Positions 4,642 to 59,055 of a stretch of 64,000 nt of DNA are shown in pieces. Under the pieces are notes generated by a model that worked only from the letters and a program-made list of their open reading frames with translations, did no database searches and was not told the DNA's origin. The stretch comes from Ulota crispa (lineage: Eukaryota; Streptophyta; Bryopsida; Orthotrichales; Orthotrichaceae), in assembly GCA_963920765.1 (NCBI GenBank), contig OY987250.1, forward strand, positions 1,674,001-1,738,000, given 5' to 3'. Position 1 is the stretch's first letter; every line of letters starts with the position of its first letter. Position numbers and translations under genes: made by a program.

Positions 4642-5008
4642 TTTACCCCTAAAGGACCATGGCCTTTAGTTTGTCAAAAGACACTCAAAACTGCCATTTC
4701 TATTACAAAGAGTAAAAAAGTTTGAAAATTAGTCTTTTTGCAAATTTGACCATAGGATCTTGTACTGGACTAGTACAAGAATGTTTAAAAAAAATTCAAA
4801 CACTTTGACCACACAAATTGCAAGATATTTGCATTTAAAGTGTAAAAAACAAACTTTTTTGCACCTTGCATGACTACATTATTTGACTTTGAACTTTTTG
4901 AACTTAAAATTTTTGCACCACAAATTTTGGAGGTTTAAATATTATGGTAGAAAATTGATTTGGGAATCTTTGGAAAAATTTAAAACAAAAAATACTTAAT
5001 TTTCATTC

Positions 5009-6402
5009 TTAACCCCTAAAGGACCAACTGTCCGTTCAACAGACAAATGGGATTTCGGGCATGTACCTATGGCCAAACTACTTTGCATGATTATTTGAAA
5101 CTTTTATTGAAGATGGGGAATTCAAAAATTTGCGTGGGCATCTAATGTTTATTCCAATTGATGCCAGGGAGCAAAAGTTATGCTCAAATAAACACAAATT
5201 TGGGGACTCCGGGCAGCAAAAAAAAAATCTTATAAAAACTTGAAAAAAAAATTAATTTTTTTCCCTCATAGATTATATCTTTGTCTACATCTGAAGCTTT
5301 GAGTCATTCCATTTGGACTAGTTATGAGAAAGTTATGGACAATCTTGTTTTTTGGGCAACTTAAGCATCTTCTTGAAAAAATAACTTATAAACTTCAATT
5401 TTGAATGCAATTTTAACATTTTTTCAAAAAAATTTGTTGGAGAGGGTGAAGTTTGCTTTCTAGAACAATCTCACCATTGGGATCATTGCATTTCAATTCC
5501 ATTTCAAGGTTATTAGCAATTAACTTGTTATTTTTTAAATTGGGAAAAACAAAGGTACCATTTTGTACTCCACCTTAAACCCAAAAAGCCACCTTAAACT
5601 AGATTTGAAGGTATCAAATTTAGTTTGAGCCACACTACTAGAAAAGGGCCCTTTTATGACTTAGTGCATATAACTCTTGATTGTCATCCAAAATTAGTCA
5701 CATTTTGGAGAGTCATATAATAGAGTCATATATAGTGTAAATTATATGCTCTCCAAATATGACTAATTTTGGATGACAATCAACAATTAGATGCACTAAG
5801 TCATAAAAGGGCCCTTTTCTAGTAGTGCCACTAAGATTTTTTCCCTTGCAAATTCCTCCTCTCAGGTAAGGGCACGTGTACCAAAAAAAAAGTTGTGAGC
5901 TCAATTTCAAGTGACTACTTGAAACCTTCAAAAGTCCCAAAATGTAGTGTTTTTCCCAATTTATTGAATAATGCGTTCAATTTAAGTTATTGTTCAATCT
6001 CATACCTTCTTTTGCCTAATGTTTTTTTAAAGAATGAAAATTAATTATTTTTTGTTTTTGTTTTTTTCCCAAGATTACCAACTCAACTTCCCACCATGCA
6101 AAAACAGAATTCCAAACTTTGTGGTGCAAAAATTTTAAGTTAAAAAAGTTCAAAGTTAAATAATCTAGTCATGCAAGGTGCAAAAAAAGTTGTTTTTTAC
6201 TTTTTAAATGCAAATATCTTCCAACCTGTACAGTCAAAGTTCTTGAGTTTTGTATGATACATTTTTATAGTAGTCTAGTACAAGATCCTACAGGTAGATA
6301 TGCAAAAAGACTAATTTTCCAAACTTTTTTACTCTTTGCCATAGAGGTGGCAGTTTTGCGTGTCTTTTGACAAAATAAAGGCCATGGTCCTTTAGGGGTT
6401 AA
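5009..6402 (+). mobile_element. TTAA-family element B (inner, inserted into element A)
   Basis: TTAA (5009-5012), then CCCCTAAAGGACC at 5013. The right end GGTCCTTTAGGGG finishes at 6398, followed by TTAA (6399-6402). The flanks belong to element A and rejoin at a TTAA inside a TTTAAAA tract. The same site is unoccupied in the related copy at 50004-50921 (tract near 50545-50560). The internal sequence is very similar to that copy, but B also carries a CACTA-type MITE at 5633-5827. Confidence 0.88.
5633..5827. mobile_element. CACTA-type miniature element
   Basis: A 195-bp element with ends CACTACTAGAAAAGGGCCC and the inverse GGGCCCTTTTCTAGTAGTG. It is flanked by a perfect 3-bp duplication CCA (5630-5632 and 5828-5830). 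The CACTA terminus and 3-bp duplication are diagnostic of En/Spm-type transposons. The interior is largely self-complementary (ATGACTTAGTGCAT and its inverse), so it is a non-autonomous foldback form. It sits inside TTAA-family element B. Confidence 0.93.
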
Positions 6403-6949
6403 AAAAAACATTAGGTGGAAGAAGGTATGAGATTGAACAATAACTTAAATTGTTAATAACCCTGCAATAAAATTGAAATGCAATAATCCCAATGGTGAGA
6501 TTGTTCTAGAAAGCAAACCTCATCCTCTTTAACAATTTTTTTGAAAAAATGTTAAACTTGCATTTAAAAATGAAGTTTATAAATTATTTTTTCAAGAAAA
6601 TCTTGAACTATCCAAAAAACAAGATTGTCCATAACTTTCTCATAACTAGTCCAATTGGAATGAATCAAAGCCTCAAATGTAGAAAAAAATATAATCTATA
6701 AGGAAAAAAATTTAAAAAAATTTAAGTTTTTGTAATTGTTTTGCCGCCCAATCTCCTCAAATTTGTGCTGATTTGGGCATAACTTTTGCTCTTTGGCATG
6801 GATTGGAATAAAAATTATATTCCCCAAAAGCTAATGTGTTTTACTACCTTCAAAAATAGTTTCAAAAATCAAGACAAAAATTGAGGCCATAGGTACATGC
6901 CCAAAATCCCATTTGTCCCTCATAGAGACAATGATCCTTTAGGGGTTAA

Positions 6950-8140
6950 CAAGTAAATTGTTCAATTTGAGTTAGACTGTTTTTGATTATATTTGCTTTA
7001 TTCCTTAAATCTTTGCAATGAAGTACACCATTTCCATAGAAACATGCATGCAATCTTTCTAAAATGGTTGTGGTACTACACAAACCTTGCGTAGAGGGTA
7101 TAGTAGGCTAGACGTAGTCTCGGGGAGATCACTCCCTTGTAATTTATGGTATACACATGAGTTGAGAGGGTATTTGATGGAGGGCTATTTACCTTAATTG
7201 TTGTATTTTACATGACCAATATTATTATATAAAAAGCTATGAGAGGCATATTTCTTGCACCCTACTTTTTTTAGAAATTCCTTGATTTTATTTTAAAGTG
7301 GGGCTATTTTATTTATAAAATTGATTTGTTCAGTTTGATCATATCTTCACTATTCTTTGTAGAAAAACATTTCTATTACAAACAAGTATATGATGTATGT
7401 CATAAAACCCAATAACAAGCATATAAAATGAAGGGTCATTATAATCTTTCAATTCACAAGTAATGTTGTTGTGTTTATTTTTTCTATGTGATTTTTAACA
7501 TATCTAATTTGAATTTGTAAGTTTATAATTTTAAAGAATTGATGCAAATTATCAAAATATTGGCGTTTTGTTCAAATTAGAGCAAATTCTTAGGACCTCA
7601 AAAAAGGCCTTGCCAAGTGACTAGGGCCTCCCATTGTACCAAGCCCTAACAAGTGGCTTCCTCATGGGGATTTGGTCATCACATTCTGGCATTGCCTAAA
7701 ATGGAATATCCTAGTCGTGAGCATTAACACCCAATAAAGAGATCCACAACCCTAAATTAAATAATTGTAGTGAATATAAATCTATCGTCTACCCTCCATT
7801 GTTGACTTTCTCCATTGTACTATAAAAATTTGTGCATCTCCTATTTGTTAAGACTAATTTATTAATAAAAATTTCTATTACCAATTGTTTTTGCATACCC
7901 TATTTTATATGTATTACAATATATAGTATTTCATGGACCCTATAGTATCCTTGCATATTATATAATTTTTTTGTTCTTGGAATTAATTGAACCCTATCTT
8001 TTAACTCACATAGTTCTTAAAAAGTCAACTAGTGATCTCCCCAAGGACGTAGTCAACCTTCATGAAATTTTACAACTTTCCAATTTTGTACATGGATTAG
8101 CAATTGCTAGTATACCTCTAAAATATTTGCAACCTCTCAT
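6950..8140. other. Intergenic, no gene recognised
   Basis: AT-rich. A GGGGAGATCACT word near 7120 recurs inverted near 8032 (AGTGATCTCCCC). These may be the eroded ends of an older element of about 0.9 kb, but the internal arms are not convincing. Confidence 0.35.
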
Positions 8141-9069
8141 TTAACCCCTAAAAGACCAAAGTCTCCTTGGGGGACAAATGGAATTTCGGGCATGTACCTA
8201 TGGCTAATCTACTTTTTGTGATTTTATGAAACTTTTATTGAAGGTGGGGAATTCAGAGATCTAAGTGGGCATCTAATTTTTTCTTCATTCCAATATTTGA
8301 TGAAGAAGTTATTCATAAATTTATGAAAAATGGTGTTCAAGGGGCAGCCAAAAACTTCTTTAAAACATTTCATATTTTTCAAATAAAAATCTGAAATAGG
8401 TTCTTTAGACTTATATAGACATGGAGAGCTTTGAATCATTCAATTTTGATAGATGAGATGAAAGTTATGAGGAGTTTTGTTTGCGGGCAGTTTTAGATTC
8501 TCTACTCTAAAATAAACTTTGAAGTCCATTATTTTACTCAATTTTCAATATTTTGAAGAAAAAAACAAAGCCAAAGGATGTACATTGTTTATTACAACAT
8601 TACAACTGTTGGGATTTGCATTTTTCATTTTTATAATTAAATTCTTAACAATTTAGTGTTTTGACTCATTCTCTACTTCTTTTTACTTACTATTTTTTCC
8701 CATGTGTTGTATAGTTCCAATTGATATGAAATTTCTCCTACATATACCTAACTTGGTCTCCTACATGGGAAAAATAAACCTCAACTTTGTGTAGAGTTAT
8801 TTTTTTGATCTAAGAGTGGTTAAAGGCTTCTGAAATTTCTGGGCAGCAGCAAAAAAAACTCATTTTTGCAATTCAGATGTAAATATCTCTTTCATTTTTG
8901 TGTAGATTGAGCTGAATTTTTTACCATGTGTACCTCTTGTAGTCTACTATAAGACCTTACGGTTAAATTCTTGTAAAAACTTTTTTTCTTACCATTGTAC
9001 TTGCTTCCCAAAAGTGGCAGTTTTTTGTGTTCTTCACAAAAAAAAATGACTTGGTCCTTTAGGGGTTAA
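8141..9069 (+). mobile_element. TTAA-family element C
   Basis: TTAA at 8141-8144 and 9066-9069 flank a 921-bp element with ends CCCCTAAAAGACC and GGTCCTTTAGGGG. Family landmarks are present: GGGCATGTACCTATGGC and TTTTATTGAAGGTGGGG near the left end, AAAGTTATGAGGAGTTTTG in the middle, AAAAGTGGCAG near the right end. A TTTTTTGTG/CACAAAAAA hairpin lies at about 9021-9043. No transposase. Confidence 0.92.
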
Positions 9070-12000
9070 TTGAACCATTTAAAAAATATTCATTATTAAC
9101 AAAATTGTCAGTATTTGCAACCAAAGATTCCAACAACTAAGTGACTTGTCAATGAAAGAGACCTCAATCTAATGCCAATTTTTTAAAAGAAAAATTCAAT
9201 GATTATTTGTGTATATTTTTGCATCAATGATAGTCAAGCACACATAATTCTTTCATTAATGCTGAATGAAAAGATAGTATTTCGTATTTGTGATTCACGA
9301 TTTGCTACAATGGTATTCAACCTTGGTAGGTCATAACATCTTACTAAAAATTGAACTTTCAAAATTTCAAGTTGTTATTAATAGGATGAAATTTATCCTT
9401 GAATTTATTATTTAGCTCTTATGCTTTGTTAGGTAATGTGAATTGATGGGCAATATTTTCATGTGTGTCTTAATGAATATACAAAAAATTGTAACAAAAA
9501 ACATTGCCTTAGAATCAAGGGGCTAAACATTTAATTCAAGGTGATTGTAAGAAACACTTGTATTATTTTTTGTCCCCTTCACCTCTTGCGGGTGATTTTT
9601 GGCTCATACCTTTTGCGTACCAAGTCATTTTGAATTTTAGAGTAATGTTCACTTTAAAGTTATAAACGTTTGGTGATTTTTTTGTTTTTCTTGAATTAGT
9701 TTACTATTTTTAAACAACCCCCAAATAGGTGTCTACCTTGGCCGTTTTGGGGTTTTTAGTACTATTTTGGGTTCAAAAAAGCGAATCTCATGCCACAAAT
9801 TAAGGAAATTGTTCATCATAGGGCATTATATGGATGTATAGAAGGGTTCTAGGAAATTGTGAATTCTTTGCTTTCCACATGCTCTCAAAGTGGGCATCCA
9901 TTCTCCTTGCATTGGTGAAATAAGAAAAATTCCTCCAAAAACCACTTGCATCAAGTGAAGATACTTAAAGAGATAAAAAATGGCCATTTTTTGTTTTATT
10001 TTTTTGAATTTTTTTACTATATTCTAAAAAACAAAAAGGAAATTATCTTTTTGTTGGTAATTTCTGTCTCTCTATTTTTGTGCATAATTTTTTTGAATTT
10101 TCATAAGTATGCTATTTTAAGCGCTTTACGAATTTTCCATACCAGTGTTAAGGGTATTTGGGACAAAATCATGAAGTGTTTCTTGCAACTACCCTCCATT
10201 CATAAGTAATTAAACATATAAGTTTTTTCCTTCTATCCCTTAGAACATATACAGATTTATGTTTTCATTTGTTAAATCCTTTGAGGATGTGTCATTTAGA
10301 TTTTAAGTTTGATTAAGACAAAACTATATGCATAAATAAAAATCTCCAGAATTTAATCCTTTTTCTAGTTTTTAAGGCCATAGTGTCCTAATAATCGATC
10401 TAAAGAGTAAATGCCTCCAAATAAAGTGATATCATTTTTTATCTTTTATGATGTTATTATTGTACTAAGAAATGATATTATTGAACTTGTGAAGGACACT
10501 CTAAATGCAAATAAAATTAGCTTATTTTTCAGGAAACCAGAACAAAATCGTAAGGCAAAATGATCCAAATTTCAAATAAATACAATCCAAGTTAATTTTA
10601 TATTGTTGTAAAGAATATGAGGAGAATGTTGTAAAGCAAACGATGACTCCAAGAGATGCAAATACTATGGAAAGTGAATCAACGCTTTGTAAATTAACCA
10701 ACAAATTGAATGTCAAGGTATGTTTTTAGAATTGACTGTTTTGTAAATTATGATTTAAGAAACTTCACAGCTTCCTTTTCGTTTACTCAAAGGCTTGGTT
10801 AAACCCTTAATCACTTGGATTGAAAATCCCCATTTCAAAACTCCGAATGTTTAGTCAAATATCTATATAATAAAGGTGTGATATCAAAAAAATACTGCAA
10901 ATTTTATTGATGCTAGCAAAAAAAATTATGGATACAATAGGTACAGTATAGAGTGCAATAAACTTATTTTTTTAGGGAATAAAAACAAGACCTCCTATCA
11001 AGATTAGCTGGATTTTAAAAAATTAAAAAAATTAGATTTCTATTACTACAAATGATACATGAATTGTGCTAGAAATATGATCTAAATTCCAAAATATATG
11101 TTTTGTGAAAGAGAATAAATTATTCCCTCATTGGTACATATACTTGTAATAATAAAAAAACTACAATAAAGCTCTTGTTGTCATGAAGTTTTCAAAAGCT
11201 TAAGCTTCTTTAACAAACAACTTATTTTGTAAATAATTCTAAAATAGCTTCCATCCATCTAAAGCCTAATTTCTAAACAACTTCTATTGTTTTCTAAAAG
11301 GTCTTCTATTATTTTCTAGAAGGTTTGATCAATGCTTTTCTAAATATCTTTTTTATTTCAGCAGTTCATAAGTGTGATATTGCCTTCTTACTATTAGGGA
11401 ACGGATTCCAAGAACACTAGTTGGAACATTCCATAATCTGCATTTCAAAAGAATAAAAAATATGTTGTAGTGTAGCCATAATATAGACTACTCTTTGATT
11501 TTTCAATTGAAAATGAGCATGTACTTTTAAACACCAATAAAGACTAATCGTTCTTTCTATTAAACAAACCATAAAGGAATGAGAATCTTTGTTGAGTTTT
11601 GAAAACATCCATATGCAATTGTTTATAGGAATGACCCTCAATTCTTTCACAATATCAAATATACCCCTATATTATTTGAAATGCCAACTACTAAAAATTT
11701 TGTAAGTCACATTTGTACCAAGAACATTGGCAAGGAAAAGCATGTTATTTAGTCAATGCAATGGCTTTGACCACAATAAATTTAAATGCAAAAACTCTAT
11801 ACAAAGCTTGAAGAGCTTGCCTCCAAGATTTGACTTACATTCAACTTGCATCTAGTTTTTGCAATTTCCATTGTCATCCCAATAATTACAAAAATTTGCA
11901 CTAAAGTGGTACAAGAAAGCTAAGGATATTAGATGTTTTCAAAGATAACTAGGGGTATAGTTGATATTCTTACACAAAACCAGGGGTATTTTTTATATTT

Positions 12001-12301: not shown

Positions 12302-13268
12302 GTAACCCCTAAAGGACCAAGTGGTTGTTCAACAACCACTTGAGAACTTGAATAGGGTCATATGGAGTTAATTTTTATTGGATGTTCTCAAAATTGTTAT
12401 GCAAGGTGCAAATATGTATCTTGTAAGTGAAAATATAAATTTTTCCCCAATTGGATGCCCGGTTCAAAAGTTATGTTGCCCAAAAGAATTTGGGCAGTTT
12501 GGGCAGTTTGGGCAGCTTGGGCGTCTTTGGAGAATCTTATGCTAAAACTCTCATCAATTTTCAAAATTTGGCAAGTATGTAACTAAAAAAACATGATGTG
12601 CAATTGTCAAAAAAAAAAAAACTCTCACATCACATTTAGAAGGGAGTCAAACTTTGTTAACTATGTTTGCATAGTTTCAAAAAAAAAAAATCCTCAAACT
12701 TCAAGCCCTATTATCTTTCAGTCTATAAATCCAAAACTCTTGAATTTTTTTTCACATATTCCAAATGATTGTCTCTAACTTTTCACCATTTAGATTTCAA
12801 ATAAAAGACTTCCTCATTGCACAAGAAATCATGAAAAAAAGACTAATGTATTGCCAATTCACAAAACCTCCTTGCATTGCACGGTGATTTAGAATAAGCT
12901 AGATTTTATCTTTGCATCCGAATTTTTTCATGAGCAAACCTAACATCATATACTTGTGAATGATCAAAAAGCTCAAATTTGTGTAGAGCAAAAATTTTAC
13001 TTCAAGAAGGCTCAAAGTTTGCTGACCTTGTTTTGCAAGAATGAAGAAAAGGTATTTTTCTCACTTCTTGATCAAACGTTATAATCTTATAATCTGAGAA
13101 GCCAAATGAGCTGAATTTTTTTGTGCACATTAACTTATTTGTTTGACACACTTTTGTACAGTTGGAATTGAGGAAAAGGTTTTTATTTTCAGTTTTGGGC
13201 AATGCAATGAAAGTTGGTTAGTTTTGAGATTTTTTCTCAAAAAACACCCTTAGTCCTTTAGGGGTTAA
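12302..13268 (+). mobile_element. TTAA-family element D
   Basis: The left flank is GTAA (one change from TTAA), then CCCCTAAAGGACC at 12306. The right end stops at 13264, followed by TTAA (13265-13268). This is a divergent subfamily. A 9-bp perfect hairpin with a 1-nt loop (arms GTGGTTGTT and AACAACCAC, 12321-12339) lies just inside the left end. An 8-bp hairpin (TTTTGAGA/TCTCAAAA, 13222-13242) lies just inside the right end. GGGCAGTTT is repeated in tandem at about 12490-12520. Confidence 0.85.
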
Positions 13269-13473: not shown

Positions 13474-14435
13474 TTAACCTCTAAAGGACCAACTGTCCCC
13501 TCAGGGGACAAATGGATTTCAGGCATGTACCTATAGCTAATCTACTTTTTGTGATTTTTTGAAACTTTTCTTCATGGTGGAAAATTCAAATATCTATGTG
13601 GGCATCTAATATTTTCTTCATTACAACATTTATTGAAGAAGTTATGCATGAATTTTTGAAAAAGGGCGAGGACGAGAAGCCCAAAAAAAATTCAAGATTG
13701 CATTTAAAATAAATAAAAATCTGAAATTGGTTCTTTAGATTTTTATATATGTGGAAATCTTTGAATCATTTTATTTTGATTGATGAGATGAAAGTTATGA
13801 GAAGTTTTAGTTTGCGGGTAGGTATGGGACTCCCAAACCTCCATTCTTTTAGCCCCTTGTAAACTTTGTTACTTTACTTTTTTGAGCTCTTTGTGTGTGT
13901 TTTTTTTTTTTGACTTTTTTTTTTTCCAAGTTGTAGTAGACTAAGATTCCTTGGATTCTACCATTTGGATCAAAGTAATTTAGATTTCTCAATATTACAT
14001 AAATCCTCCAACTTTGCCTAGTGAATACGCAAATTTCATGGCCTTCCAGCATTGCAGGATTTTACAAAGTATGATTCACACCTCCAATTCATTTGAAAAT
14101 TCTCTTACATTTACCTGACTTGGTCTACTACATGGGAAAAATAAACCTCAATTTTGTGTAGAGCAATTTTTTTGATATAGGAGCCGTCAAAGGCTTGTGA
14201 AATTTTTGGGCAGCAAGGAAAAAAACTTTTTTTTTCACTTCAGATGTCAATATCACACTCCTCTACTTCTAGAATGAGCTGAAAAATTTTCCCACAAGTA
14301 CCTCCCATTGTCTAGGGCAAGATCTTTTGGTCAATTTTCAAAATTCTTGTTTTCCTACTTTTCTACTCATTCCCCCAAAAGTGGCGATTTTCAGTGATTT
14401 TCAAAGAAAAAAGGGCTTGGTCCTTTACGGGTTAA
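13474..14435 (+). mobile_element. TTAA-family element E
   Basis: TTAA at 13474-13477 and 14432-14435 flank a 954-bp element with ends CCTCTAAAGGACC and GGTCCTTTACGGG. A perfect 8-bp hairpin (TGTCCCCT, C, AGGGGACA; 13494-13510) sits inside the left end. Internal landmarks match elements C and N. Only about 200 bp separates it from element D. Confidence 0.88.
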
Positions 14436-22187: not shown

Positions 22188-22934
22188 TTAACCCCTCAAG
22201 GCCCAGGCAGCATAATTTGAGATGTTTGGTGATTTTGGGCAGGTCACAACAGATGGGTTTTGCATTTTATTTTATTTTTAATTTTCACACATGAAGTACC
22301 TAAGGAGTAGGTTTAAGGCCCAACAATTTTCATAGCTTTTGACTACATGGTTCAAAAGCTATTGCATGATTTGTTGTTTTCTTTGCTTGTCAGGATAGCT
22401 TGGGCAGTTCAAAAACTTCTTTAAAAATTACTTTTCAAGTTTGTTTGTTTTTTTTTTAAAATTGGTTCTTTAGACCTACATATAGGTGGGAAGCTTTGAA
22501 TCATTCAATTTTCATTAATGAGATGAAAGTTATGAGAAGTTTTAGTTTGCGGGTAGGTTGACTCCACACCTACTTGCAAACTAAAACTTCTCATAACTTT
22601 CATCTCATTAATGAAAATTGAATGATTCAAAGCTTCCCACCTATATGTAGGTCTAAAGAACCAATTTAAAAAAAAACAAACATACTTGAAAAGTAATTTT
22701 TAAAGAAGTTTTTGAGCTGCCCAGGCTGTCTTGACGAGCAAAGAAAACAACAAATCATGCAATAGCTTTTGAACCATGTAGTCAAAAGTTATGAAAATTG
22801 TTGGGCCTTAAAGCTACTCCTTGGGTACTTCATGTGAGAAAATAGAATAAAAAACAAATGCAAAACCCATTTGTTGTGACCTACCCAAATCACCAAACAA
22901 CTCAAAATACGTTGCTTGGGCCTTGAGGGGTTAA
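22188..22934. mobile_element. TTAA-family element F, near-perfect long hairpin
   Basis: TTAA at 22188-22191 and 22931-22934 flank 739 bp whose ends are CCCCTCAAGGCCC and the exact inverse. The two arms, each about 365 bp, are almost perfectly complementary and meet at about 22555-22570. The arm is homologous to the half of the ordinary family member that contains AGATGAAAGTTATGAGAAG. It is thus an inverted duplication of one half-element. Confidence 0.93.
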
Positions 22935-25265: not shown

Positions 25266-25790
25266 TTAACCCCTAAAGGACCATTGTCCCTTCGGGGGAC
25301 AAATGGGATTTTGAGCATGTACCTATGGCTAAACTACTTGTGCGATTTTATGAAAATTTTATGGAAGATGGGGAATTCAAAGATCTACACAAACATCTAA
25401 TTTTTTCTTCATTTTGACATTCGACGAAGAAGTTATGCAAGAAATTATGAAAACTTGGGGAAGACTGCCCATTTGGGTAATCCAAAAAACTACTTAAAAC
25501 TTCTTTTTCTTTTTAAATAAAATTTTGAAACTAGTTCTCTAGATTTTTTAAGGCTTGGGAAGCTTTGAATCATTCAATTTCAATCAATGGGATGAAAGTT
25601 ATGAGGAGTTTTTGTTTGCAAGTAGTTATGGATTCTCTACTCTAAAATAAAATTTGAGGTCCTTTATTTAACTCGATTCTCAATATTAAGGAAAAAGACC
25701 AAACCCAAGGAAGTAGATTGTTCATCACAACACTATAAATGTTGAGGTTTGCATTATTCACTTCAATATTTAAATTCTTAGTGTTTTGAC
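25266..25790 (+). mobile_element. TTAA-family element G (3' truncated)
   Basis: TTAA (25266-25269) then CCCCTAAAGGACC at 25270, with the subterminal hairpin TGTCCC/GGGACA at 25285-25301. Internal landmarks match elements C and N up to the ATTCTTAGTGTTTTGAC region, after which no right end is found. The next sequence belongs to a different foldback element at 25849. Confidence 0.8.
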
Positions 25791-32278: not shown

Positions 32279-33212
32279 TTAACCCCTAAAGGACTGAGCC
32301 ATTTTTTCAGTGAAAATCACTCAAAATTGTCACTTTTGGGGTTGATAAGAAGGTAATGTTTATTGAAAATTTGGATAATCAAACCGTAGGATCTTGCCCT
32401 AAACTAGATTAGGTACTCGTCAAAAAAAATCAGGTCATCTCAGATGGAATGAGTGAGATATGTACATCTAAAGTGAAAAGAAAAGTTTTTTTTCATGCTC
32501 CCCCAAAATTTTAGAAGCCTTTGACCATTCTTACATGAAAATAATTGCTCTATGCAACTTTGCGCTTTATTTTTCCCATGTAGGAGATCAAGTTAGGTAT
32601 GTGTGGGAGAATTTCAAATCAATTGGAACTACACAGCACATGGGAAAAATTAGTAAGTAAAAAGAAGTAGAGAATAAGTCAAACCACGAAATTGTTAAGA
32701 ATTCAATTATTAAAATGAAAAATGCAAATCTCAACGGTTATAATGTTGTGATAAACAATCTATGTCCTTTGGTTTTGTTTTTTTTCCAAAATAATGAAAA
32801 TTGAGTAAAACAAAGGACTTCAAAGTTTATTTTAGAGTAGAGAATCCATAACTGCCCTCAAACAAAAACTCCTCATAACTTTCATGTCATTGATTGAAAT
32901 TGAATGATTCAAAGCTTCTCACCTATGAAAAAATCTAAAGAACCAATTTCAAATTTTAATTTTTAAAAAAATGAAATTTTTAAAGAAGTTTTTGGGCTGC
33001 CCGGGCAGGCACTCCTCCCCAACTTTTCAGAAATTCTTGCATAACTTCTTCAATAATTGTCAAAATGAGGAAAAAAGTAGATGCCCACGTAGATCTTTGA
33101 ATTCCTCACCTTCAATAAAAATTTCAGAAAATCACACATAGTAGTTTATCTAAAGGTACATGCCCAAACTCCCACCTGTCCTCCGAAGGGACAACAGTCC
33201 TTTAGGGATTAA
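32279..33212 (-). mobile_element. TTAA-family element H
   Basis: TTAA at 32279-32282 and 33209-33212 flank 926 bp with ends CCCCTAAAGGACT and AGTCCTTTAGGGA. It is inverted relative to element N, which is its closest relative here. An AGTGA/TCACT hairpin lies at about 32309-32321, and a TGTCC/GGACA hairpin lies near the other end. Confidence 0.9.
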
Positions 33213-33949: not shown

Positions 33950-34184
33950 TTAACCTTTAAAGGACCGAGTGATTGTACATACTTTGTGCAATGTTGTATA
34001 AGTTGTATTTGGAATGCATCCACACCTCTATTATATTTGATATCAACACAAAAGTTGGACTATAGACAAATGTAGTTCTAGTGAGCTAGTCAAGATCCCA
34101 AATTAAAACTTTGTGTTGGTAGCAAATGCCACTTATATGATAGTACATCTACATACAATGGTCGCTTGGTCCTTTAGTAGGTAA
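33950..34184. mobile_element. TTAA-family element I (short, 227 bp)
   Basis: TTAA (33950-33953) then CCTTTAAAGGACC; the right end GGTCCTTTAGTAG is followed by GTAA. It keeps only the termini and a little interior, so it is an internal-deletion derivative or a separate subfamily. Confidence 0.65.
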
Positions 34185-36631: not shown

Positions 36632-37501
36632 TTCACCCCTAAAGTTATTTTGTGTTTACATGGTCAAATGGCTCAAAATTGACTTCTCTCAACAATCAGT
36701 AAATGAAAATATTGAATTTTTTTCAGTAGTTTAACCATAAGATCTATTTTGTCACTTGCTTATGTACATCCTCTCAAAAACTCAAACTTTGTGAGGGCAT
36801 ACTTCATTAGATTCTAACACTCAAAGTGGGGTCAAAGCTTTTTTTGAAGCTTCTTTTAGGCGTCAACTTTTTCTTTGGTCATTCAAAATGAGATCTTTTG
36901 TTTTATGAACTTCTTTTACAACTGGAATTTCTTCTAGAGCATGAAGTTGGCTATGTGCCTCAGAAATTCCTCATCATCCAATGCATAAAACATAATGGAA
37001 TAAAACTAGAAGTAGGAATTGCTTTGTTCAAATTGTCATTACACAAAGGAAACTTCACTAAAAAGATTCTTATAGAAATCTCACTTACAAAATCCGCATG
37101 GTGTAAACCTAGAACATCACGTGGGGTATTTACCAAAGTTTATTTTTTTATTTTTTTAAATAAAGAAGTAAAATAGAAGTTATCATATACTCAAGGAGAG
37201 TCGACTGCAAACTTTGCCCATGGACCAAGCCATTGTAAAGTGCTTTTGAACACTACTTAAGCAACACCCTTCCTCATCCCTTTGTCTCTCGATTTTTCTG
37301 AGGATGCCTAACACCCAAATCATGTTTGGACCATATCTCACTCAAGAATTATTCAATTCCACGTTTTTTTGGGAAGTATCAAGTTTTTCATTATGAGCAC
37401 ATACACCCTTATTGACCATCTTATCTTTTGTATCTACTGAGAAATGCTTGCCCAAATATTCCAAAAGCCCAAAGTAGGCTCCTTGGTCCTATTAGGGTCA
37501 A
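36632..37501. mobile_element. TTAA-family element K (degenerate)
   Basis: The left end TTCA then CCCCTAAAG at 36636 and the right end CTTGGTCCTATTAGGG then TCAA (37498-37501) are eroded versions of the family ends, at the usual spacing of about 860 bp. Interior similarity to other copies is weak. A frame at 36898-37176 is compositional. Confidence 0.5.
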
Positions 37502-37873: not shown

Positions 37874-38820
37874 TTAACCGCTAAAGGCCCAAACAATGTT
37901 TTGTTGGCAACATTGTAATTTTGGGTAGCTCACTACAAATGGATTTTTTATTTATTTTCTTTGTAAATTTTCAAACATGATTTTCCCAAGAAATTTTTTT
38001 AGGCCGAACAATTTTCATAACTTTTAATCACATTGTTCAAAATTTACTACATGATATGTTGTAATCTTTTTTATGAGGTAGCCCGGGCATCTCAAAAAAG
38101 TTTTTCAAAATTTACATTTAAAAAATAAACAAAAATTGAAATTTGTTCTTTAGATTTATGTATACTTGGGAAGCTTTGAAACATTCCATTTTGATCAATG
38201 CAATGAAAGTTATTGGGATATTCTATAAACTTGCGGGCAGCCTTGGATTCTCTACTCTAAAGTAAACTTTGAAGTCCTATAGTTTTCTCAATTTTCAATA
38301 TTTTGAAAAGAAAAAAAGCCAGAGGAAGTAAATTGTTTATTACAACTTTATAACCATTAAGATAAAAGATTTAATTTTTTACAGTTAAGATTCTTAAAAA
38401 TTTAGAGTTTTGATTCATTCTCTTCTTCTTTTTACTTACTTTTATTTTTTCATGTGTTGTACAATTCCAAATGACTTGAATGTTTTCAGGTGTGTACGGA
38501 CTTGCCTTGAAGAATGAATCCAAAAACTTACAACCATCTTGAAAAAACTTTCATACAAATATGACCTTGTGAAATGCAACTGCTTAGATTTTTGCAAGGA
38601 CAAAAATAGGCTTTTTGTAAAATCAAACTCAATTATCTAGCAATCTACATGGCTGAAATTTCTAATTTTTTTTCAAAATCTTTGAATACTAGTGTACTAC
38701 AAGACCTTACGGTTAGATATGTCCAAAAATGATTTTTATCTAAAATTTGGTACTTATACTAGAAATGGCAGTTTTGGAGCAATTTTGGTGAAAATGTAGT
38801 GGAAAGCCTTGGGGCTAAAA
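37874..38820 (+). mobile_element. TTAA-family element L
   Basis: TTAA (37874-37877) then CCGCTAAAGGCCC at 37878. The left half resembles element F (CCCAAACAATGTTTTG, then AATTTTCATAACTTTTAATC). The right half resembles C and N (GGATTCTCTACTCTAAAG, then AAATGGCAGTTTTGG). The right end near 38805-38818 (CCTTGGGGCTAA) is degenerate. Confidence 0.7.
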
Positions 38821-39686: not shown

Positions 39687-40950
39687 TTAATTCCTACAGC
39701 ACAAAGCTCAAATTTTTACCAAAATTGCACCATAACTGCCAGGTCTAGTACAAGTACCAAAATTTAGGAAAACAATAATTTCTTGACAAATATAGCCGTA
39801 AGATCTTATACTACACTATTATCAAAAGATGTGAAATAAATTCAGGAGTTTTCACCATGTAGATTGTAAGATATTTGAGTTTGAATTGACATTAAGTCGT
39901 TTTTTGTCCTTGCAAAAAATTGGGCACTTGCACTTTACAAGTCATATTTGTATGAAAAAACTCCAAAATGGTTGTAATTATTTGGATTTATTCTTCAAAG
40001 CAAGTTGGGTATACAATTGAAAAACTTCAAATCATTTGGAACTGTAAGACACATGGAGTAAGTAAAAAGAAGTAGAGAATGATTCAAACAACTAAATTGT
40101 TAAGAACTTAATTATGGAATGAAAAGTTCCAATCCTAATGCTTATAACATTGTAATAAACAATCTACAGTTTTTGGATTTTTTTCCTAACATATTGAAAT
40201 TTGATTTAATTAATGAATTTCAAAGTTTGTTTTAGAGTAGAGAATCCATAATTGCCCACAAACAAAATCTCCTCACAACTTCCATCTCATTGATAAAACT
40301 AGAATGATTCAAAAGCTCCCCAAGGAAAGTAGGAGCACCCATATGTGTCAATCTAAGGGTTTTTGGGTAGGAAAATCAATCCATAAACTTTGAAAATAAT
40401 ATTGTCAAGTTAGGAAGAGGAAACCAAAAATATTGGCATCAATCTTAAAGTTCCAATTACAAGTATTTGTTTGCAAAGATTTTTCAAAGTTTGAAATCAA
40501 TAAAGTTGTAAAGCTGTGTGTAAGAGATGCTAAAAACAATGGTTATTGGTTCTTAAATAGTGAGATGGGACACTCAAAATTATCATGTTAGTCACCCAAA
40601 ACCACCACTTTGTTACCCATAACCATCACTTTGTAGCCCACAACCATCTAATTTCCCATTTATTAGTCCCTGCCACTGTCAATGACGCCCATGGAGACAT
40701 GACGCTTATGGGTGCTACCTTACATATAAATCTAAGGAACGAGTTTCAAAAACCAAAATTCAAAAAATGTATTTTTTAGAGAAGTTTTTTGGCTACCCGT
40801 CGAGCAAAGAAAACAACATGTTATGCAATAACTTTTGAACCATGAAGTCCAAAGTTATGAAAGTTGTTGGGCCTTATGGCTACTCCTTGGACACATCGAT
40901 ATTGATTTTTTGTAAAGTTCATCAAGATTAAATTCTAGACCAATTGATTA
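39687..40950 (-). mobile_element. TTAA-family copy, degenerate and interrupted
   Basis: The eroded left end TTAATTCCTACAGCACAAAGC (39687) matches TTAACCCCTAAAGGACCAAGC. Interior landmarks follow in inverted orientation up to about 40325, where a foldback element is inserted. The copy resumes at about 40725 (ATAAATCTAAGGAACGAG) and runs to about 40950. The other terminus is not found; a GGGAAAATTTC-family element starts at 40953. Confidence 0.65.
40326..40724. mobile_element. Foldback element, GTAGGAGCACCCATA family (copy 2)
   Basis: The ends AAGTAGGAGCACCCATATGT and TTATGGGTGCTACCTTACAT are inverted. It interrupts a TTAA-family copy. The interior has three tandem AACCATCACTTTGTA(G)CCCA-like units at about 40600-40650. 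Confidence 0.65.
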
Positions 40951-48201: not shown

Positions 48202-48282
48202 TTATTTAATTGCAAAAGTTTCACCATTCTACATCATAAATGTTGAACAAAAAAACAAATAGAAAGTCCTATGTACTGTACT

Positions 48283-49999: not shown

Positions 50000-50925
50000 T
50001 TAACCCCTAAAGGACCAACTATCCGTTCAACGGACAAATGGGATTTTGGGCATGTACGTATGGCCAAACTACTTTGCATGATTATTTGAAACTTTTATTG
50101 AAGATGGGGAATTCAAAGCTCTACATGGGCATCTAATTTTTATTCCAATTGATGCCAGGGAGCAAAAGTTATGCCCAAATAAGCACAAATTTGGGGACTT
50201 TGGGCAGCAAAACAAATTCTTATAAAAACTTGAAAAAAATAAATAAAAATCTCATAGATTATATTTTTGTCTACGTGTGAAGCTTTGATTCATTCCATTT
50301 GGACTAGTTATGAGAAAGTTATGGACAATCTTGTTTTTCGGGCAGTTCAAGCATCTTCTTGAAAAAATAATTTACAAACTTCATTTTTGAATGCAATTTT
50401 AGTATTTTTTCAAAAAAATTTGTTGGAGAGGGTGAAGTTTGCTTTCTAGAACAATGTCACCATTGGGATCATTGCATTTCAATTCCGTTGCAGGGTTATT
50501 AACAATCTAAGTTTTTGTTCAATCTCATACCTTCTTCTGCATAATGTTTTTTTTTAAAGAATGAAAATTAATTATTTTTGGTTATTTTTTTTCCCAAGAT
50601 TACCAACTCAACTTCCCACCATGCAAAAATAGAATTCCAAACTTTGTGATGCAAAAATTTTAAGTTAAAAAAGTTCAAAGTTAAATAATATAGTCATGCA
50701 CGGTGCAAAAAAAGTTGTTTTTTACTTTTCAAAAGCAAATATCTTCCAACCTGTATAGTCAAGTTCTTGAGTTTTATATGACACATTCTTATAGTAGTCT
50801 AGTACAAGATCTTATGGTTAGATATGCAAAAAGACCGATTTTCAAACTTTTTTGCTCTTTGTCATAGAGGTGACAGTTTTGCGTGTCATTTGACAAAATA
50901 AAGGCCATGGTCCTTTAGGGGTTAA
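50000..50925 (+). mobile_element. TTAA-family element M
   Basis: TTAA at 50000-50003 and 50922-50925 flank 918 bp with ends CCCCTAAAGGACC and GGTCCTTTAGGGG. This is the closest relative of elements A and B and serves as their reference. It contains the unoccupied TTTAAAG tract corresponding to B's insertion site in A. Subterminal hairpins are TCCGTT/AACGGA (50022-50034) and TGTCA/TGACA (50884-50895). Confidence 0.93.
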
Positions 50926-51757: not shown

Positions 51758-51826
51758 ATGGCGCGTTTGAACCGGCGATGGAGCCTTTCGAGGGCGCTTG
51801 AGCTCAGACGGGTGTGCCTCGGTTAG
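51758..51826 (+). CDS. Possible upstream ORF in Qa-SNARE leader (22 aa)
   Basis: ATG at 51758 opens a 22-codon frame, Arg- and Leu-rich (begins MARLNRRWSLSR), ending at TAG 51824-51826 in the GC-rich leader region. Whether it is transcribed with the SNARE gene is inference from position. It is not a recognised conserved peptide. Confidence 0.25.
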   Translation: MARLNRRWSLSRALELRRVCLG

Positions 51827-52072
51827 GCTCTAATACTAACTGCTTCAGTTTCAAATTTCCTTATATCGACGCGGATTAACAGCTTGTGTACAGGTATGCG
51901 TTTTCCTAGGGTTTAATGCCGCAATTTTGAGTTATTATTATGCGCAAACAACCAGTTCTAAGTAAACTTCATTGTCGGTAAAAATTCTTCTTATGAATGT
52001 ACTTGCTTAGATCAATATCGTAGCCTTATTCTTTTGATTTTGATTATACGTGTTTTTCTGAGAGTCGGATCG

Positions 52073-52810: not shown

Positions 52811-53042
52811 TTGAATTTAGGGTTTGCTACGTTGAAGATATACTTCGTTCTCACTATACTCTTGGCGGAGAGTGATGTTATTTCTGATGAATGTGTCGCT
52901 CAGGAGATTGCAGCTCATCATTGGGTGGAGTGAACTGGAATTTATTGCTTTTTCAATAGTACAGAGATCTCTTTATTTGATCAGGAGTTTACGGTTATTG
53001 ACTTTTTGTAAGTTGGTTGAGTTATAAGAGCGGTAGACAAGG

Positions 53043-56000
53043 ATGAGTTTTTTAGATATAGAAGCCGGGGGTCGTCCCCCCGGTCGCAGGCAGCAGGATT
53101 CGACGCAAGCGCTTGCATCGGGAGTGTTTCAGATTAACACCGCTGTATCTTCATTCAAGCGTCTCGTTGGTGCTTTGGGCACTCCTAAAGACACTCCGGC
53201 CCATCGTGAAAAGTTGTAAGATCTCTCCTCTGAAACTCGAGCAACTGCATATCTGTAATGTTTTCTATCAATGCCTTGCCAAAGGGAATAAGGTAGCAGC
53301 ATCCATAATCATCAAATTAAGGGTTTTGAACATGATGGTTATTAATAAACATCTAGCAAATTATTGGATCCTATTAGCAAGAGAAAATGATGAGTTTTCA
53401 CTTTTGAATGTAGGGAAAATTTCATGGCTACCCCTGAAGTTTGCAACATTTTCACAGATACCCCTGCTTTTTCAGAAATATTACAAATACCCTTGGACCA
53501 AAAAATTTAGTCATTTGCTTTGTTGTGCACGTCACTTCTCTTTTTTCTTTGTGCGCACGCATTCAACAAGAAAGTGGTTTGCGCACAAAGAAAGAAAGGA
53601 AGTGGCATGCACAACAAAACAAATGCCTGAATTTTTGGTCCAAGGGTATTTGTGATATTTCTGAAAAAGCAGGGGTATCTGTGAAAATATTGCAAACTTC
53701 AGGGGTATCCATGAAATTTTCCCTTGAATGTATCATTTGGATACTGTGAGAATAAGTTAGTGAATTTTTAAAGAGCCAACTGCGATTGCACCTAATACCA
53801 ACACTAAGGTTTCATGTTCACATGTTGTACATCCTTGTAATTACATTATTCACTTCCACAGATTTTCCAACATTTTAGAGGTGATGGTATATGGGTACAG
53901 TGATGGTTATGGGTGTTGCTACCTTACCGTACTTTTAGCAGCATTTTCCAATTATCATTGGAGACGCTTAAGTTATTGTTCTACTTCGACATGTTGGCTA
54001 GCAATAGTCAGCGCTTTTCTGTTGTTTAATGGAAACGTGCTGGCACTCTATCGATGGTGGCTTGAGGTTCTCTTTTAAAGAGTATATCTGATGTCTGCTG
54101 GATCATTCAGAGCTGAAATTACCAAAAAATTTCAGGTCTTGAGATTGTGAGTTACAATATTTTTCAAGTGTTGGAAAGAGGACTCGGCTACATGTTTTCA
54201 TACGTGGCACTTCGTGAATTGAACTTTCTTAGGTTTCTACCTTTCGGCACTATATGAATGTGTATGCTTTCTCAGGCACAAAACGAGGCTGCACATAGGA
54301 CAACTCGCCAAAGAAACAGGCTCGAAGTTGAAGACGGCTAGTGATCATGATCACAACAAACCTGTTCAGGTATGCCTTTTGGAATCTTTATCGACTAACC
54401 TTGAGCTCATGCGTGAGAATCTGTCATTCTTTTGTCCTCCTAGTATTTTTCAAAATGCCTACTTTTGTAAATAATTTAGTCTTGTTGTAAGCAGTGATTT
54501 AGTGGATTATCACTAAATGACTTCGTCGATGTGAACAATACAAACTTTTATGCATTAATGGCCGAGTGCATGGCTTTCTTTTATGCTAGGTGGCTTGTTT
54601 TTGGTTTTCTGTAGAAATTCAAGGGCGATCCAATTTTCTGCGCAGGGTAATAAGAAATTGAGCGATGCTAAACTTGCGAAGGACTTTCAAGCTGTGCTTC
54701 TGGAGTTTCAAAATGCCCAGAAAATAGCGCAGGAACGGGAAAAGACGTTTGCACCATTTGTTCCTGAAGATGTACGACTATCAAGGTTTGGGCTTCCATT
54801 CATTTTCAACTTTGAATATTTCCAGGTGCTCTTATTTTGGCATATGTACTTGCACATGCGTGCTGCAGAGTAGTTTAGTCTTTAAGGACTAGGTGGTTGT
54901 CTCTTGGACTGTCTTCTCAGTAAGGCAATCTTATTAAATCAGGGTGTCTTACTTTTTACTGGTGAATCCATTATCGAGTAACTCGAGAGTTCATTCATCT
55001 GGAATCAACCATTTCAGATGTGTGGGATTAGCTGAATTTATAGAAGCTTGGTGGGTGGCATGAACTTTACTTACAGTTCTAATCCTGTAATAGATTAATT
55101 GATTCCCAAATTATAGCATGAGTCTCTTAACAGTCTGACCGTTGGGAGATTGCTGCCCTGTTTGGCATCTTTCAGCTTACCACTTGCTATCAGCTAAGCC
55201 GTGAACATGAACAGCAGATTAGGTGTGAAATGCTGTGTTGCACTGGCCCGAGATGTGGATATATTCACCTAAACCAGTTTTTTCGGCCTTTCAAGACTAA
55301 TGAGATGAGTGGTCTTCTGCAGTCAATATTCTGGCGATTTGAAGTCAGCGCCAGAGGAAAAGCAGTACCAACTCTATGCTGGACAAAAATCGTAAGGCGT
55401 CAGCTACTCTTACCCTCCAGCTTTGGTGCCTCTTATCAAGGTGCCGGTGTAGTTTGTTCTCTATTTTCTCGAAGACGTAGAACTGTATTGTTGTATCACC
55501 TGCCTGCTGAAGTGGTACGAGTATTAACCTTTGCAGGCAAGACTTTATCCAACTGGAGAACGAAACAGTTTTCAATGAAGCAGTGATTGAAGAAAGAGAG
55601 CAAGGCATACGGGAAATACATCAACAAATTGGCGAAGTGAATGAGATTTTCAAGGATTTAGCTGTTCTCGTTCATGATCAAGGCTACATGATTGGTATGT
55701 GACTTAACCGATATCTTATTCTCTTGCTTCTTGTTTAACTATGTATATAGTCACGAGTCATTATTTTTCTTGTGATATGAATTAGTGGGAATGTAATGTA
55801 AGTTCTTGTGAGTGACAACTGCTTCTGCTGGTGCAGATGATATTGACTCGAATTTACAAGGTGCTGAAGCTGCAACTGATCAAGCAAATCGCCAGCTTGC
55901 AAAAGCTTCCAATAGTCAGAAGTCTGGAACAACACTGGTAATTATCTTTTACCCTGACCTCTTTAAAACCACCAACTTCTTAATCACATTTTTTATCTCT

Positions 56001-56638
56001 CTAACCAAACCCTAACTGATTACTCTGTTCAAGATTCACACTTCTCTGATTTGCACTCTGCCATATCACAAGAAGTTACATATAGATTGAAATTTACGGG
56101 TTTCAGCAAGTGTGAAAAGCATTATAGAACATCATTAAGCCTCTTGCGACCCCGATTACTTTTTCGATGTTACTTTCATTTGCAATACTATGTTGACGCA
56201 ATAGAATTATGTGCATTTTGGCCGCCTAAACTTTTGACCTTTAAGATGCCTGGGTGTACTTCTAACAGAATTTTACTGTGAATAATCTCGGGGACGCTGT
56301 ATTTCCGTAGTGAAATCCCGTCTCAATCATTACCCTTCTGTTCACACCTTTCTTGTCCTGAAGACTTACATTAGTGGTAATGTTGGTAACTATTGGCTAG
56401 AGTAAACGTGACTCTTCATGAACGACTGTGCATTTTCAAGTAGATGAAAAAAACTATCTCCAAAAAACATGAATGGAAGATTTTTAAGTGTTTCTGTGGT
56501 TTTGCTATACACTCAAATTTGTTTATGGTATTGTGCTGGATGCACTAATTATTTTGTTGGTGTTTTCTGCAGACTTGTATGATTTTGGTAATTGTAGCAA
56601 TGGCGGTGCTTGTGCTGCTCCTCTTCCTGGTTAGGTGA
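53043..56638 (+). CDS. SYP2: SYP2-type Qa-SNARE (vacuolar/prevacuolar syntaxin), 7 coding exons
   Basis: Exons 53043-53215, 54276-54369, 54646-54771, 55345-55391, 55537-55694, 55837-55937 and 56573-56638 splice in frame to 254 aa. The N-terminal Habc-like region contains [38 protein letters not shown] and [20 protein letters not shown]. The SNARE motif (about 165-220) is [20 protein letters not shown], then [20 protein letters not shown], with the zero-layer Gln at about 195. A single C-terminal membrane anchor of about 18 residues ([18 protein letters not shown]) ends one residue before the stop. Plant SYP2 proteins (PEP12/VAM3 types) act in fusion at prevacuolar and vacuolar membranes. The linker between exons 4 and 5 is about ten residues shorter than I expect, so a missed microexon is possible. 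Intron 1 contains a MITE. Confidence 0.9.
53413..53723. mobile_element. Foldback MITE, GGGAAAATTTC family (copy 4)
   Basis: A 311-bp element in intron 1 of the Qa-SNARE gene. Its inverted ends begin GGGAAAATTTCATGG, and it is flanked by a perfect 9-bp duplication TTGAATGTA (53404-53412 and 53724-53732). Closely similar to the copy at 17860-18173, including the central GCGCACAAAGAAAGAAAGG palindrome. Confidence 0.95.
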
Positions 56639-57257
56639 TGGATGTCTACCTCATTTTTGACATTTGACTGGGGGCTTCTGATAACGCGTAAGTTCTGAGG
56701 TTGCTCTAGTTGGCATATTTTTAAAATAATTGTAGAACCAGGTATACCAGGTATTGTATTTCTACTAGTCCTAGCATTTTGTGTTGTTCAAGGTGAACCT
56801 TGTTTTTTGAAATCGTGCCAGCTGTGGTACAAGCAATTCTCGGTTTCGAGTTACTATGGCTCAGCTAAATTTTGTAGTAGTAATGTCCTCGCAATTTTGG
56901 TATTTAACCTGTTGATGTTTTGAGGGAGATTTTTCAGTAAGATAGAACTACTTCATACAGTGCATTTGAGCTCACTTGCATACAGTCAGGTTTTCATTTC
57001 TAGAGGAACAGAAATGATGAGTTTCAAAGAACGTAATTTTTCTGGAGAGTATTGGTAAGTTTTGCTGATTTTTGAAGGAGTAGGGTTGTACTTTTGTCGC
57101 AGAAATTTTCAAAACATGATTTGTCCATTCTTGTCGAAGTTTTGTGGATAGTATTTTGATGCAAAGTAGGCGCAATCATTCGAAAGCTCATGCCTCTTGT
57201 GAAACTAAACTACAGTTCTTGTATTACCGGTAGTCCACAAGTTGTTGCAACATAACC
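56639..57257. other. Qa-SNARE 3' flank
   Basis: Follows the stop codon and presumably includes the 3' untranslated region. No further exon or element recognised before the foldback at 57267. Confidence 0.4.
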
Positions 57258-57266
57258 ATAAATTTT

Positions 57267-57640
57267 GGGAATTGCTAAAGCCACACCCCAAGGTATGCTT
57301 TGAGCATTAAATGCGAGAGTTTGATGCTGCTTTTCTTGATTTGGATCAAAAGATGTGTTTCACCTCTATCATCCTCAGGTTATATTTGAAAATTTTGGAG
57401 ATGTTTGAATTTGAAATAAAAAATATAGGATTTTTGAATTACTTAAATCAAAAACACATAAAAAAAGTACCAATGAGGCAATAAAAGTTCAACAAAAATT
57501 TATACTTGTTTTTCTTTCTTTCAAGCAGGTGGTAATGCTGTGAGCCTGTGACTAAATGAATGATGAACCACTTGAATATAAAAAAATAACATTAAATTCT
57601 CAAATTACATGCTCATGGGGGTGTGGCATTAGCAATTCCC
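57267..57640. mobile_element. Foldback element, GGGAATTGCTAAAG family
   Basis: The ends GGGAATTGCTAAAGCCACACCCC and GGGGTGTGGCATTAGCAATTCCC are inverted with two mismatches. The flanks ATAAATTTT and CAAATTTTT are an approximate match only. 374 bp, non-coding, AT-rich interior. Confidence 0.72.
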
Positions 57641-58122
57641 CAAATTTTTTCTTCAATAAGAGCTCCTTTAAAATTACAACAATAGAATGAGCTACATTGA
57701 ATATTACATTTAGGTTGCCCCACATTAATTCCTAGATATTGCACACTATGTAAATATTTACTGCTGCTACAATATTTTTCATCAAACGTTATTGCAGCAA
57801 ATTGCAAAAAGATAAATGGCTTTCAATTCATAAACTGTGTGAAATCTTAATATTTAGTGGGTTGCATGTGCCTCCAAGTGGCCAAGTGATGAGTCATGAG
57901 GTCACTTACCTTGTCATGAGGTCACTTACCAAGGTAAGACAACCTAATTGTCAAGGCAACCTAAATGCAATATTTAGTGTAGTTTATTTTGTCATTTATC
58001 CACACTTTTCTATCAAATCATCTTCTAACTATTTGTAGCCTTTTTTTTTTTTTTTTAAATATTGATAATTTTGAATCTTCTAAAAATTGAAAATGAGATC
58101 AATTAAAAAGCTAGAACAAGAT
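57641..58122. other. Intergenic, no gene recognised
   Basis: Contains a direct duplication CATGAGGTCACTTACC (57896-57930) and a GTGGCCAAGTGATGAG stretch. No exon chain. Confidence 0.4.
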
Positions 58123-59055
58123 TTAACCCCTAAAAGACTGTTGTCCCATTGGGGGATAGGTGGGAGTTTGGGCATGTACCTTTGGATAAGCTACTTTGTG
58201 TGATTTTTTGAAACTTTTATTGAAGGTGGGGAATTCAAAGGTCTACGCGGGCATCTACTTTTTTCCTCATTCCAACAATTATTGAAGAAGTTATGCATGA
58301 AAATCTGACAAGCAAGGGAGGACTGCTCCCTTGGGTAGCCCAAAAACTTCTTTAAAAATTTCATTTTTTTAAAAATTAAAATTTGAAATTGGTTCTTTAG
58401 ATTTTTTCATAGGTGAGAAGCTTTGAATCATTCAATTTCAATCAATGACATGAAAGTTATGAGGAGTTTTTGTTTGCGGGCAATTATGGATTCTCTACTC
58501 TAAAATAAACTTTGAAGTCCTTTGTTTTACTCAATTTTCATTATTTTGGAAAAAAAACAAAACCAAAGGACGTAGGTTGTTTATCACAACATTATAACCG
58601 TTGAGATTTGCATTTTTCATTTCAATAATTGAATTCTTAACAATTTAGTGATTTGACTTATTCTCTACTTTTTACTTATTGATTTTTCCCATGTGTTGTG
58701 TAGTTCCAATTGATTTGAAAATTCTCCCACACATACCTTACTTGATCTCCTACATGGGAAAAATAAAGCGCAAAGTTGCATAGAGCAATTATTTTCATGT
58801 AAGAATGGTCAAAGGCTTCTAAAATTTTGCGGCAGCATGAAAAGAACTTTTCTTTTCACTTTAGATGTAAATATCTCACTCATGTCCATCCAGGATGACC
58901 TGATTTTTTTTCCACAAGTACTTAATCTAGTCTAGGGCAAGATCCTATGGTTGGATTTCCCAAATTTTCAAAAAGATCACCTTTTTACTAACCCCCCAAA
59001 AGTGGCAGTTTTGAGTGATTTTCACTAAAAAATGGCTCAATCCTTTAGGGGTTAA
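58123..59055 (+). mobile_element. TTAA-family element N
   Basis: TTAA at 58123-58126 and 59052-59055 flank 925 bp with ends CCCCTAAAAGACT and AATCCTTTAGGGG. It has all the landmarks of the C/H subfamily and an AGTGA/TCACT hairpin at 59014-59026. It is the closest relative of element H, in opposite orientation. Confidence 0.93.

Follow-up and report, generated by a model that had tools for sequence, protein, structure and literature searches.

PiggyBac transposons of animals insert at TTAA, start mostly with CCC, measure 2.1 to 3.5 kb in beetles and encode a five-domain transposase, as described in the available parts of PMC12732532 and PMC10813416. In the piggyBac element of Trichoplusia ni (IFP2), a dimer of the C-terminal domain binds bp 17-33, with its centre at about bp 25, and an internal repeat is carried in the right end too. 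The asymmetry of the two ends, which the native transposase requires in cells, is termed enigmatic (available part of PMC7351741). Here we describe a transposon family in a stretch of 64,000 nucleotides from the moss Ulota crispa (assembly GCA_963920765.1, contig OY987250.1, positions 1,674,001 to 1,738,000), hereafter the window. The family almost certainly consists of piggyBac elements, of which the moss holds thousands of short copies together with mostly broken coding relatives.

PiggyBac is familiar from animals; in land plants it is little described and usually a footnote. It is listed among the angiosperm superfamilies of miniature inverted-repeat transposable elements (MITEs; PMC10004981), accounts for 1,230 copies in the repeat table of a fern (PMC6890710), is recorded in all groups studied, land plants included (PMC4438587), and is mentioned for occasional plant cases such as red algae (PMC12732532), each in the part of the source that was accessible. 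A search of the open-licence literature, Repbase and most subscription journals lying outside it, gave no account of piggyBac elements in mosses.

The moss elements share with T. ni piggyBac the TTAA target, a transposase with three catalytic aspartates (DDD) and a palindrome at bp 17-33 of the left end (available part of PMC7351741). They differ in their terminal repeat, CCCCTAAAGGACC, in the length of their coding elements (5.7-8.8 kb versus 2,472 bp in the accessible part of PMC10813416), in half-sites whose sequence varies among subfamilies, and in their right end, where the internal repeat was looked for and no second copy came to light. By sequence, the closest solved transposase is piggyBat of bats (9c0f), which belongs to a different host, and the moss transposase stretches mostly contain stops. 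Compared with animal piggyBac, the moss has longer coding elements, thousands of short copies and a 71-bp class in a sister family. It also has a coding partner with the same ends, whereas the accessible parts of PMC10004981 and PMC6890710 give none for their plant PiggyBac MITEs and tables.

Genome-wide ends and transposase

The exact 13-mer CCCCTAAAGGACC occurs 9,597 times in the 274.8-Mb assembly, and its reversed control three times. The flank reads TTAA at 8,154 of these ends (0 for the reversed control), VTAA at 325, and is changed within TAA at 1,118. TTAA is present on both sides of the elements. The terminal repeats of T. ni piggyBac begin with CCC; both the main family and the sister family begin with CCCC, in keeping with the CCC/CCY start of piggyBac repeats. 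By a crude extrapolation, which assumes that the window ratio of exact to all ends holds everywhere and rests on one window about three times richer than average, the main family would number about 16,000 copies, or roughly 5-6% of the genome.

At least 120 stretches of the assembly match PF13843 (DDE_Tnp_1_7), which we take to be the piggyBac DDE domain, with a best E of 1.3e-73; none was found in 14 control genomes. This number is a lower bound because 116 of 528 first-look candidates were scored. Stops are found in 110 of the 120 scored stretches, ten being stop-free, and there is no sign of present activity; as most stretches carry stops, most or all transposition activity is probably past. 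Among the 30 best loci, the three catalytic positions are occupied by D in 27, 22 and 26 (stops read as X), so that the DDD triad is present, and 29 of the 30 cores contain at least one stop. Two transposase pieces match the solved piggyBat and piggyBac transposases, the first with E 2.6e-24 (9c0f, piggyBat) and 7.6e-20 (6x67), the second with E 1.7e-16 and 3e-13.

Eight longer PF13843 stretches were read and comprise three complete elements, two with a right end only and three without a matching pair; matching ends around PF13843 surfaced only in these stretches of 7-9 kb, 4-kb pieces being insufficient. L045 is complete over 8,247 bp, with both 13-mers exact and TTAA on both sides. L044+L042 is complete over 8,821 bp, with one mismatch in one end and TTAA on both sides. 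L040 is complete over 5,738 bp and has the sister-family ends CCCCTAAATGCCTA. All three contain PF13843 between their ends. The sequence-only reading had assigned the window copies to piggyBac and argued that an autonomous partner of the short non-coding copies must have existed. Both claims are supported by the genome-wide conservation of TTAA and by the two long relatives that carry the main-family ends, TTAA and PF13843; the search it proposed for autonomous-type copies thus yields these two elements and a third with CCCCTAAATGCCTA ends. The C-terminal tail of L040, as read from its sequence, is rich in cysteine and histidine in a pattern reminiscent of the C-terminal cysteine-rich zinc domain of piggyBac, with no Pfam zinc-domain match.

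Two further observations concern the coding loci. Open piggyBac-transposase frames lie in three stretches without a matching end pair (L041:3150-4838, L039:3514-4680, L043:3228-4655) and are candidates for host-adopted genes, or for elements whose ends escaped detection. L044+L042, L045 and L046 share a stretch upstream of the transposase in which a DFLDSQ motif precedes a serine-rich, acidic segment. This stretch, found 1-2 kb in from the left end of L044+L042 and L045, is perhaps an N-terminal exon or a second protein.

Copies in the window

The window contains 24 ends with up to three mismatches to the 17-mer TTAACCCCTAAAGGACC, which is TTAA followed by CCCCTAAAGGACC; 0.15 are expected in shuffled sequence. 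Six of the 24 ends are exact and 20 have an intact TTAA, the remaining four reading TTTA, GTAA, TTAC and TTGA. The copies, with the two left-end palindromes discussed below, are as follows.

4642..6949, minus strand: outer short copy with its left-type end at 6949, split by copy 5009-6402; ends 4642 (TTTA) and 6949 (TTAA); joined flanks collinear with uninterrupted copies in the alignment
5009..6402, plus strand: nested short copy, itself carrying an insert at about 5533-5979; exact ends, each with TTAA; aligns to 50000-50925
8141..9069, plus strand: short copy, 921 bp between TTAA; 3' part 82% identical to coding element L045 over 352 bp
12302..13268, plus strand: short copy, 959 bp, flanks GTAA/TTAA; recognised by its ends, with no body similarity to the coding elements searched
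12320..12340, no strand: left-end palindrome AGTGGTTGTTCAACAACCACT, bp 15-35, centre bp 25
13474..14435, plus strand: short copy, 954 bp; bp 1-175 (85%) and 413-954 (75%) align to the ends of L044+L042
13494..13510, no strand: left-end palindrome TGTCCCCTCAGGGGACA, bp 17-33
22188..22934, no strand: 739-bp short copy from a diverged subfamily (CCCCTCAAGGCCC), TTAA on both sides
25266..25780, plus strand: left part only of a short copy; left end exact, right end not found
32279..33212, minus strand: 926-bp short copy with its left-type end at 33208; 92% identity with 58123-59055
33950..34184, no strand: 227-bp copy, flanks TTAA/GTAA
34319..35333, minus strand: diverged-subfamily copy, 1007 bp, flanks TTGA/TTAA; its end 35329 sorts with the left ends, yet lies below the palindrome threshold
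36632..37501, no strand: doubtful copy, body unmatched, both ends degenerate (5 and 4 mismatches)
37874..38800, plus strand: short copy with left end only and an approximate right limit; body matched at 38095-38800
39687..40322, no strand: degraded copy, end with 5 mismatches, homologous body
50000..50925, plus strand: 918-bp short copy with two exact ends, each flanked by TTAA
58123..59055, plus strand: short copy, 925 bp, TTAA on both sides

Both ends are present in 11 copies (4642/6949, 5009/6402, 8141/9069, 12302/13268, 13474/14435, 22188/22934, 32279/33212, 33950/34184, 34319/35333, 50000/50925 and 58123/59055); 25266 and 37874 are unpaired ends. The sequence-only reading listed about 15 copies with common ends. 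This stands for 13 of the 15 starts, which are ends with up to three mismatches, and not for 36632 and 39687, which are degenerate with five mismatches each; the copy at 39687 is backed by body similarity at 39693-40322, and no body similarity was found for that at 36632. Its starts 4642 and 5009 are not neighbours, as a complete copy is nested within another. Its length estimate of 920-960 bp for most copies agrees with the nine uninterrupted complete copies, six of which measure 918-959 bp and the others 227, 739 and 1007 bp. The summed intervals amount to about 12 kb (12.9 kb with 36632), or about 19-20% of the window, which matches the earlier figure of a fifth; 10,009 window bases align to copies from elsewhere in the genome. 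An Rfam search of the window gave no match.

Within copy 5009-6402, the insert of about 445 bp at 5533-5979 contains a hairpin that resembles a short CACTA-type element; its ends are CACTACTAGAAAAGGGCCC and its arms span 5633-5705 and 5755-5827.

A palindrome near bp 25 of the left end

We collected 88 ends from the window and the fetched loci and sorted them by bp 37-66 only, which gave 36 left ends, 36 right ends and 16 others. The most self-complementary of 78 centres in the left ends is bp 25.0 (0.603 paired versus 0.376 shuffled), and the palindrome lies at bp 17-33 as in T. ni. When all 36 left ends are aligned (A2, preferred to alignment A1, from which five left ends lacking a clear palindrome had been omitted and to which two others had been added), 79.0% of cells pair versus 63.4% in shuffles and at most 50.0% with the partner slid. 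The alignment contains 45 double-changed cells versus 14.5 in shuffles; kinship among the copies inflates both the pairing and the covariation figures. The half-sites TGTCC, GTGGC and AGCCC, and GGCACC in the sister family, have one common centre. With a threshold of at least four of five outer pairs at centre 24-26, the palindrome is scored for left ends in 28 of 36 (19 of 288 at control centres), for right ends in 3 of 36 (39 of 288) and for the others in 4 of 16 (12 of 128). For a right-end palindrome, the candidate centre 28 was rejected: its pairing of 0.631 is accompanied by 0.602 in shuffles, and no centre stands out.

Alternatively, the palindrome could act as a nucleic-acid hairpin, such as one from which small RNA arises; a hairpin would give the observed covariation equally well. 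We consider this unlikely, since the palindrome coincides in position with the site of the T. ni cysteine-rich-domain dimer (bp 17-33, centre about 25; PMC7351741, accessible part) and is one-ended: among 22 complete elements it is found at exactly one end in 18, at both ends in none and at neither in 4, and in all three coding elements the transposase lies downstream of the palindromic end. A protein-binding site is thus the preferred reading of the palindrome.

The sister family and its 71-bp elements

The sister-family end TTAACCCCTAAATGCC occurs 4,241 times in the assembly. After clustering by bp 37-95, with a three-cluster cut picked after inspection of the data, a palindrome with its centre at 24-26 is found in 10 of 11 ends of the left cluster and in 0 of 12 others. 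The profile over all 23 sister ends lacks a peak at 25 because about half of them are right ends.

Very short elements with CCCCTAAATGCC ends, usually flanked by TTAA, were found as L098-L111 and at 91 places genome-wide (exact 12-bp ends with 40-60 bp between). TTAA is present on both sides in 66 of the 91. Among 50 that were listed, 45 are exactly 71 bp long, two are 64 bp, and one each is 70, 73 and 80 bp. With the 73- and 80-bp elements left out (n=48), the palindrome is found at exactly one end in 35, at both in 2 and at neither in 11. The 100-bp flanks of ten close relatives are unrelated apart from one 32-bp match, and TTAA is present on both sides in eight of the ten, all of which come from a list made with a TTAA-including query. 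Since these flanks are unrelated, the 71-bp unit itself appears to have moved. In the main family, no match was found with 30-60 bp between exact ends.

Target site and assignment to piggyBac

The sequence-only reading had itself raised a TA duplication with ACCCC ends, as in Tc1/mariner-type elements. The arrangement TA + ACCCC...GGGGT + TA yields the same flanks and, because TTAA is its own reverse complement, duplications of 2 bp and 4 bp leave an identical empty site; it therefore falls to target conservation and the transposase to carry the argument. If TA alone were the target, the outer bases would be free and about 32% of them would be T (T makes up 32% of the window). Instead, the outer T is kept in 8,154 of the 8,479 ends that keep TAA (96.2%), that is, like an average target base, for which 85% intact TTAA implies about 96%. 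Elements with these ends also carry PF13843. The Tc1/mariner explanation is therefore largely refuted and very improbable, and the genome-wide flanks that were proposed as a check favour piggyBac. The 3-bp flanks, TAA on the left and TTA on the right, are inverted and not direct repeats. Flanks of the GTAA and ATAA type were also considered as non-canonical 4-bp duplications, with no case found; in L050 one side only is changed.

L045, L046, L047 and L044, the extension of L042, were included among the longer stretches because these loci share sequence with the short copies. The 15 window queries were aligned to four coding stretches with a cut-off of E<=1e-4. Eight of the 15 align, five of them at both ends (8145, 13478, 32283, 50004 and 58127). 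On the left side these five align over 138-217 bp at 73-85%; on the right side four align over 340-550 bp at 70-82%, and 50004 over only 129 bp at 70%.

Several observations weigh against the assignment to piggyBac or against details of it. A TA (2-bp) and a TTAA (4-bp) duplication are formally inseparable from sequence alone. Seven of the 15 queries (12306, 22192, 33954, 34323, 36632, 37878 and 39687) are dissimilar to the four stretches searched, and consequently they are linked to the coding elements by their ends and flanks and, in several cases, by a body resembling that of other copies. No match was found for the middle of the short copies (for example bp 176-412 of 13478). Only the right end is present in L046 and L047, and the stretches read of L039, L041 and L043 lack a matching end pair. 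No 13-bp end (up to two mismatches) with a TTAA flank was found within 1.5 kb of the 30 best PF13843 loci. The C-terminal piece of L040 gave no Pfam zinc-domain match. The palindrome is below threshold in 8 of 36 left ends, and at the right end (bp 14-200) a copy of the left-end repeat beat shuffles (p<0.05) in 0 of 17 elements.

TTAA targeting is not unique to piggyBac, Kolobok and Sola (Sola3) being other candidates whose transposases lay outside the searches made, and the seven copies without body similarity would fit a family that is piggyBac-like at its tips only, yet this origin of the short copies appears largely refuted and is hardly credible, as five of the 15 copies match piggyBac-coding stretches deep inside both ends. 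The piggyBac assignment is thus retained.

Nested insertions and age of the copies

Copy 4642-6949 minus its insert aligns unbroken to the window copy 50004, to L008, to L051 and to two duplicate copies in L053, with the target present once. At a second nested insertion, L048, four uninterrupted relatives read GTTAAC at the site, and the flanks of L048 itself read GTAA and CTTT. The target is intact in the uninterrupted relatives at both insertions. Of 32 candidate end pairs, a set that includes false pairings, these were the two for which a spanning match was obtained. L048/L049 was rejected as a non-canonical duplication, since its flanks GTAA and CTTT mismatch and GTTAAC stands at the L048 target site in all four uninterrupted relatives.

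For 20 complete short copies, with segmental duplicates excluded, identity to the closest partner over 80% or more of the length is 81-93%; five of the 20 have no such partner.

Some transposon loci occur in opposite orientation 6-110 kb apart: L048/L049, L053 at 116 and 7000, C7:18203169/18223004, C2:36765124/36779670 and C10:676128/785346. Identity is 99.9-100% in the two pairs that were read, and PF13843 scores are equal or nearly so in the other three, which suggests recent inverted duplications or assembly effects. Elsewhere in the assembly, psaA and psaB are intact on contig C157. Their best matches among solved structures are 8htu, 6l35 and 7ksq, photosystem I of Physcomitrium patens, followed by 9lut, in keeping with a moss host. 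A further 46 psaA/psaB-like fragments, many of them short, lie on other contigs and are numerous plastid DNA insertions.

Mechanism and significance

In the mechanism that we propose, a transposase dimer would have gripped both CCCCTAAAGGACC tips and cut at TTAA. At the left end alone, a dimer of its C-terminal cysteine-rich domains would have bound the palindrome at bp 17-33. The element would then have re-inserted at another TTAA, and the short copies may have been mobilised in trans by transposase from the long ones. Chances are about even that the moss elements follow a simplified piggyBac end plan, in which a single predicted cysteine-rich-domain site is present at the left end only, with half-sites that differ between subfamilies through compensating changes, and that the sister family includes a 71-bp element, roughly two 35-bp ends put together, which nevertheless reached many TTAA sites. 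If so, the end asymmetry of T. ni piggyBac ("enigmatic" in the accessible part of PMC7351741) would reflect a rule of long standing that has been conserved, and a piggyBac enzyme could move a unit shorter than the 35 + 63 bp ends of T. ni by themselves.

PiggyBac is a workhorse of genome engineering that is known mainly from animals. With their enzyme relics, a minimal form of 71 bp and two or more families that differ in their palindromes, the moss copies are a natural experiment on the end parts that such elements require. Their thousands of copies allow tests of end asymmetry and of co-evolution between the C-terminal domain and its site, and they could supply pairs of transposases and ends without cross-reaction. 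The finding also bears on the picture of land-plant transposons.

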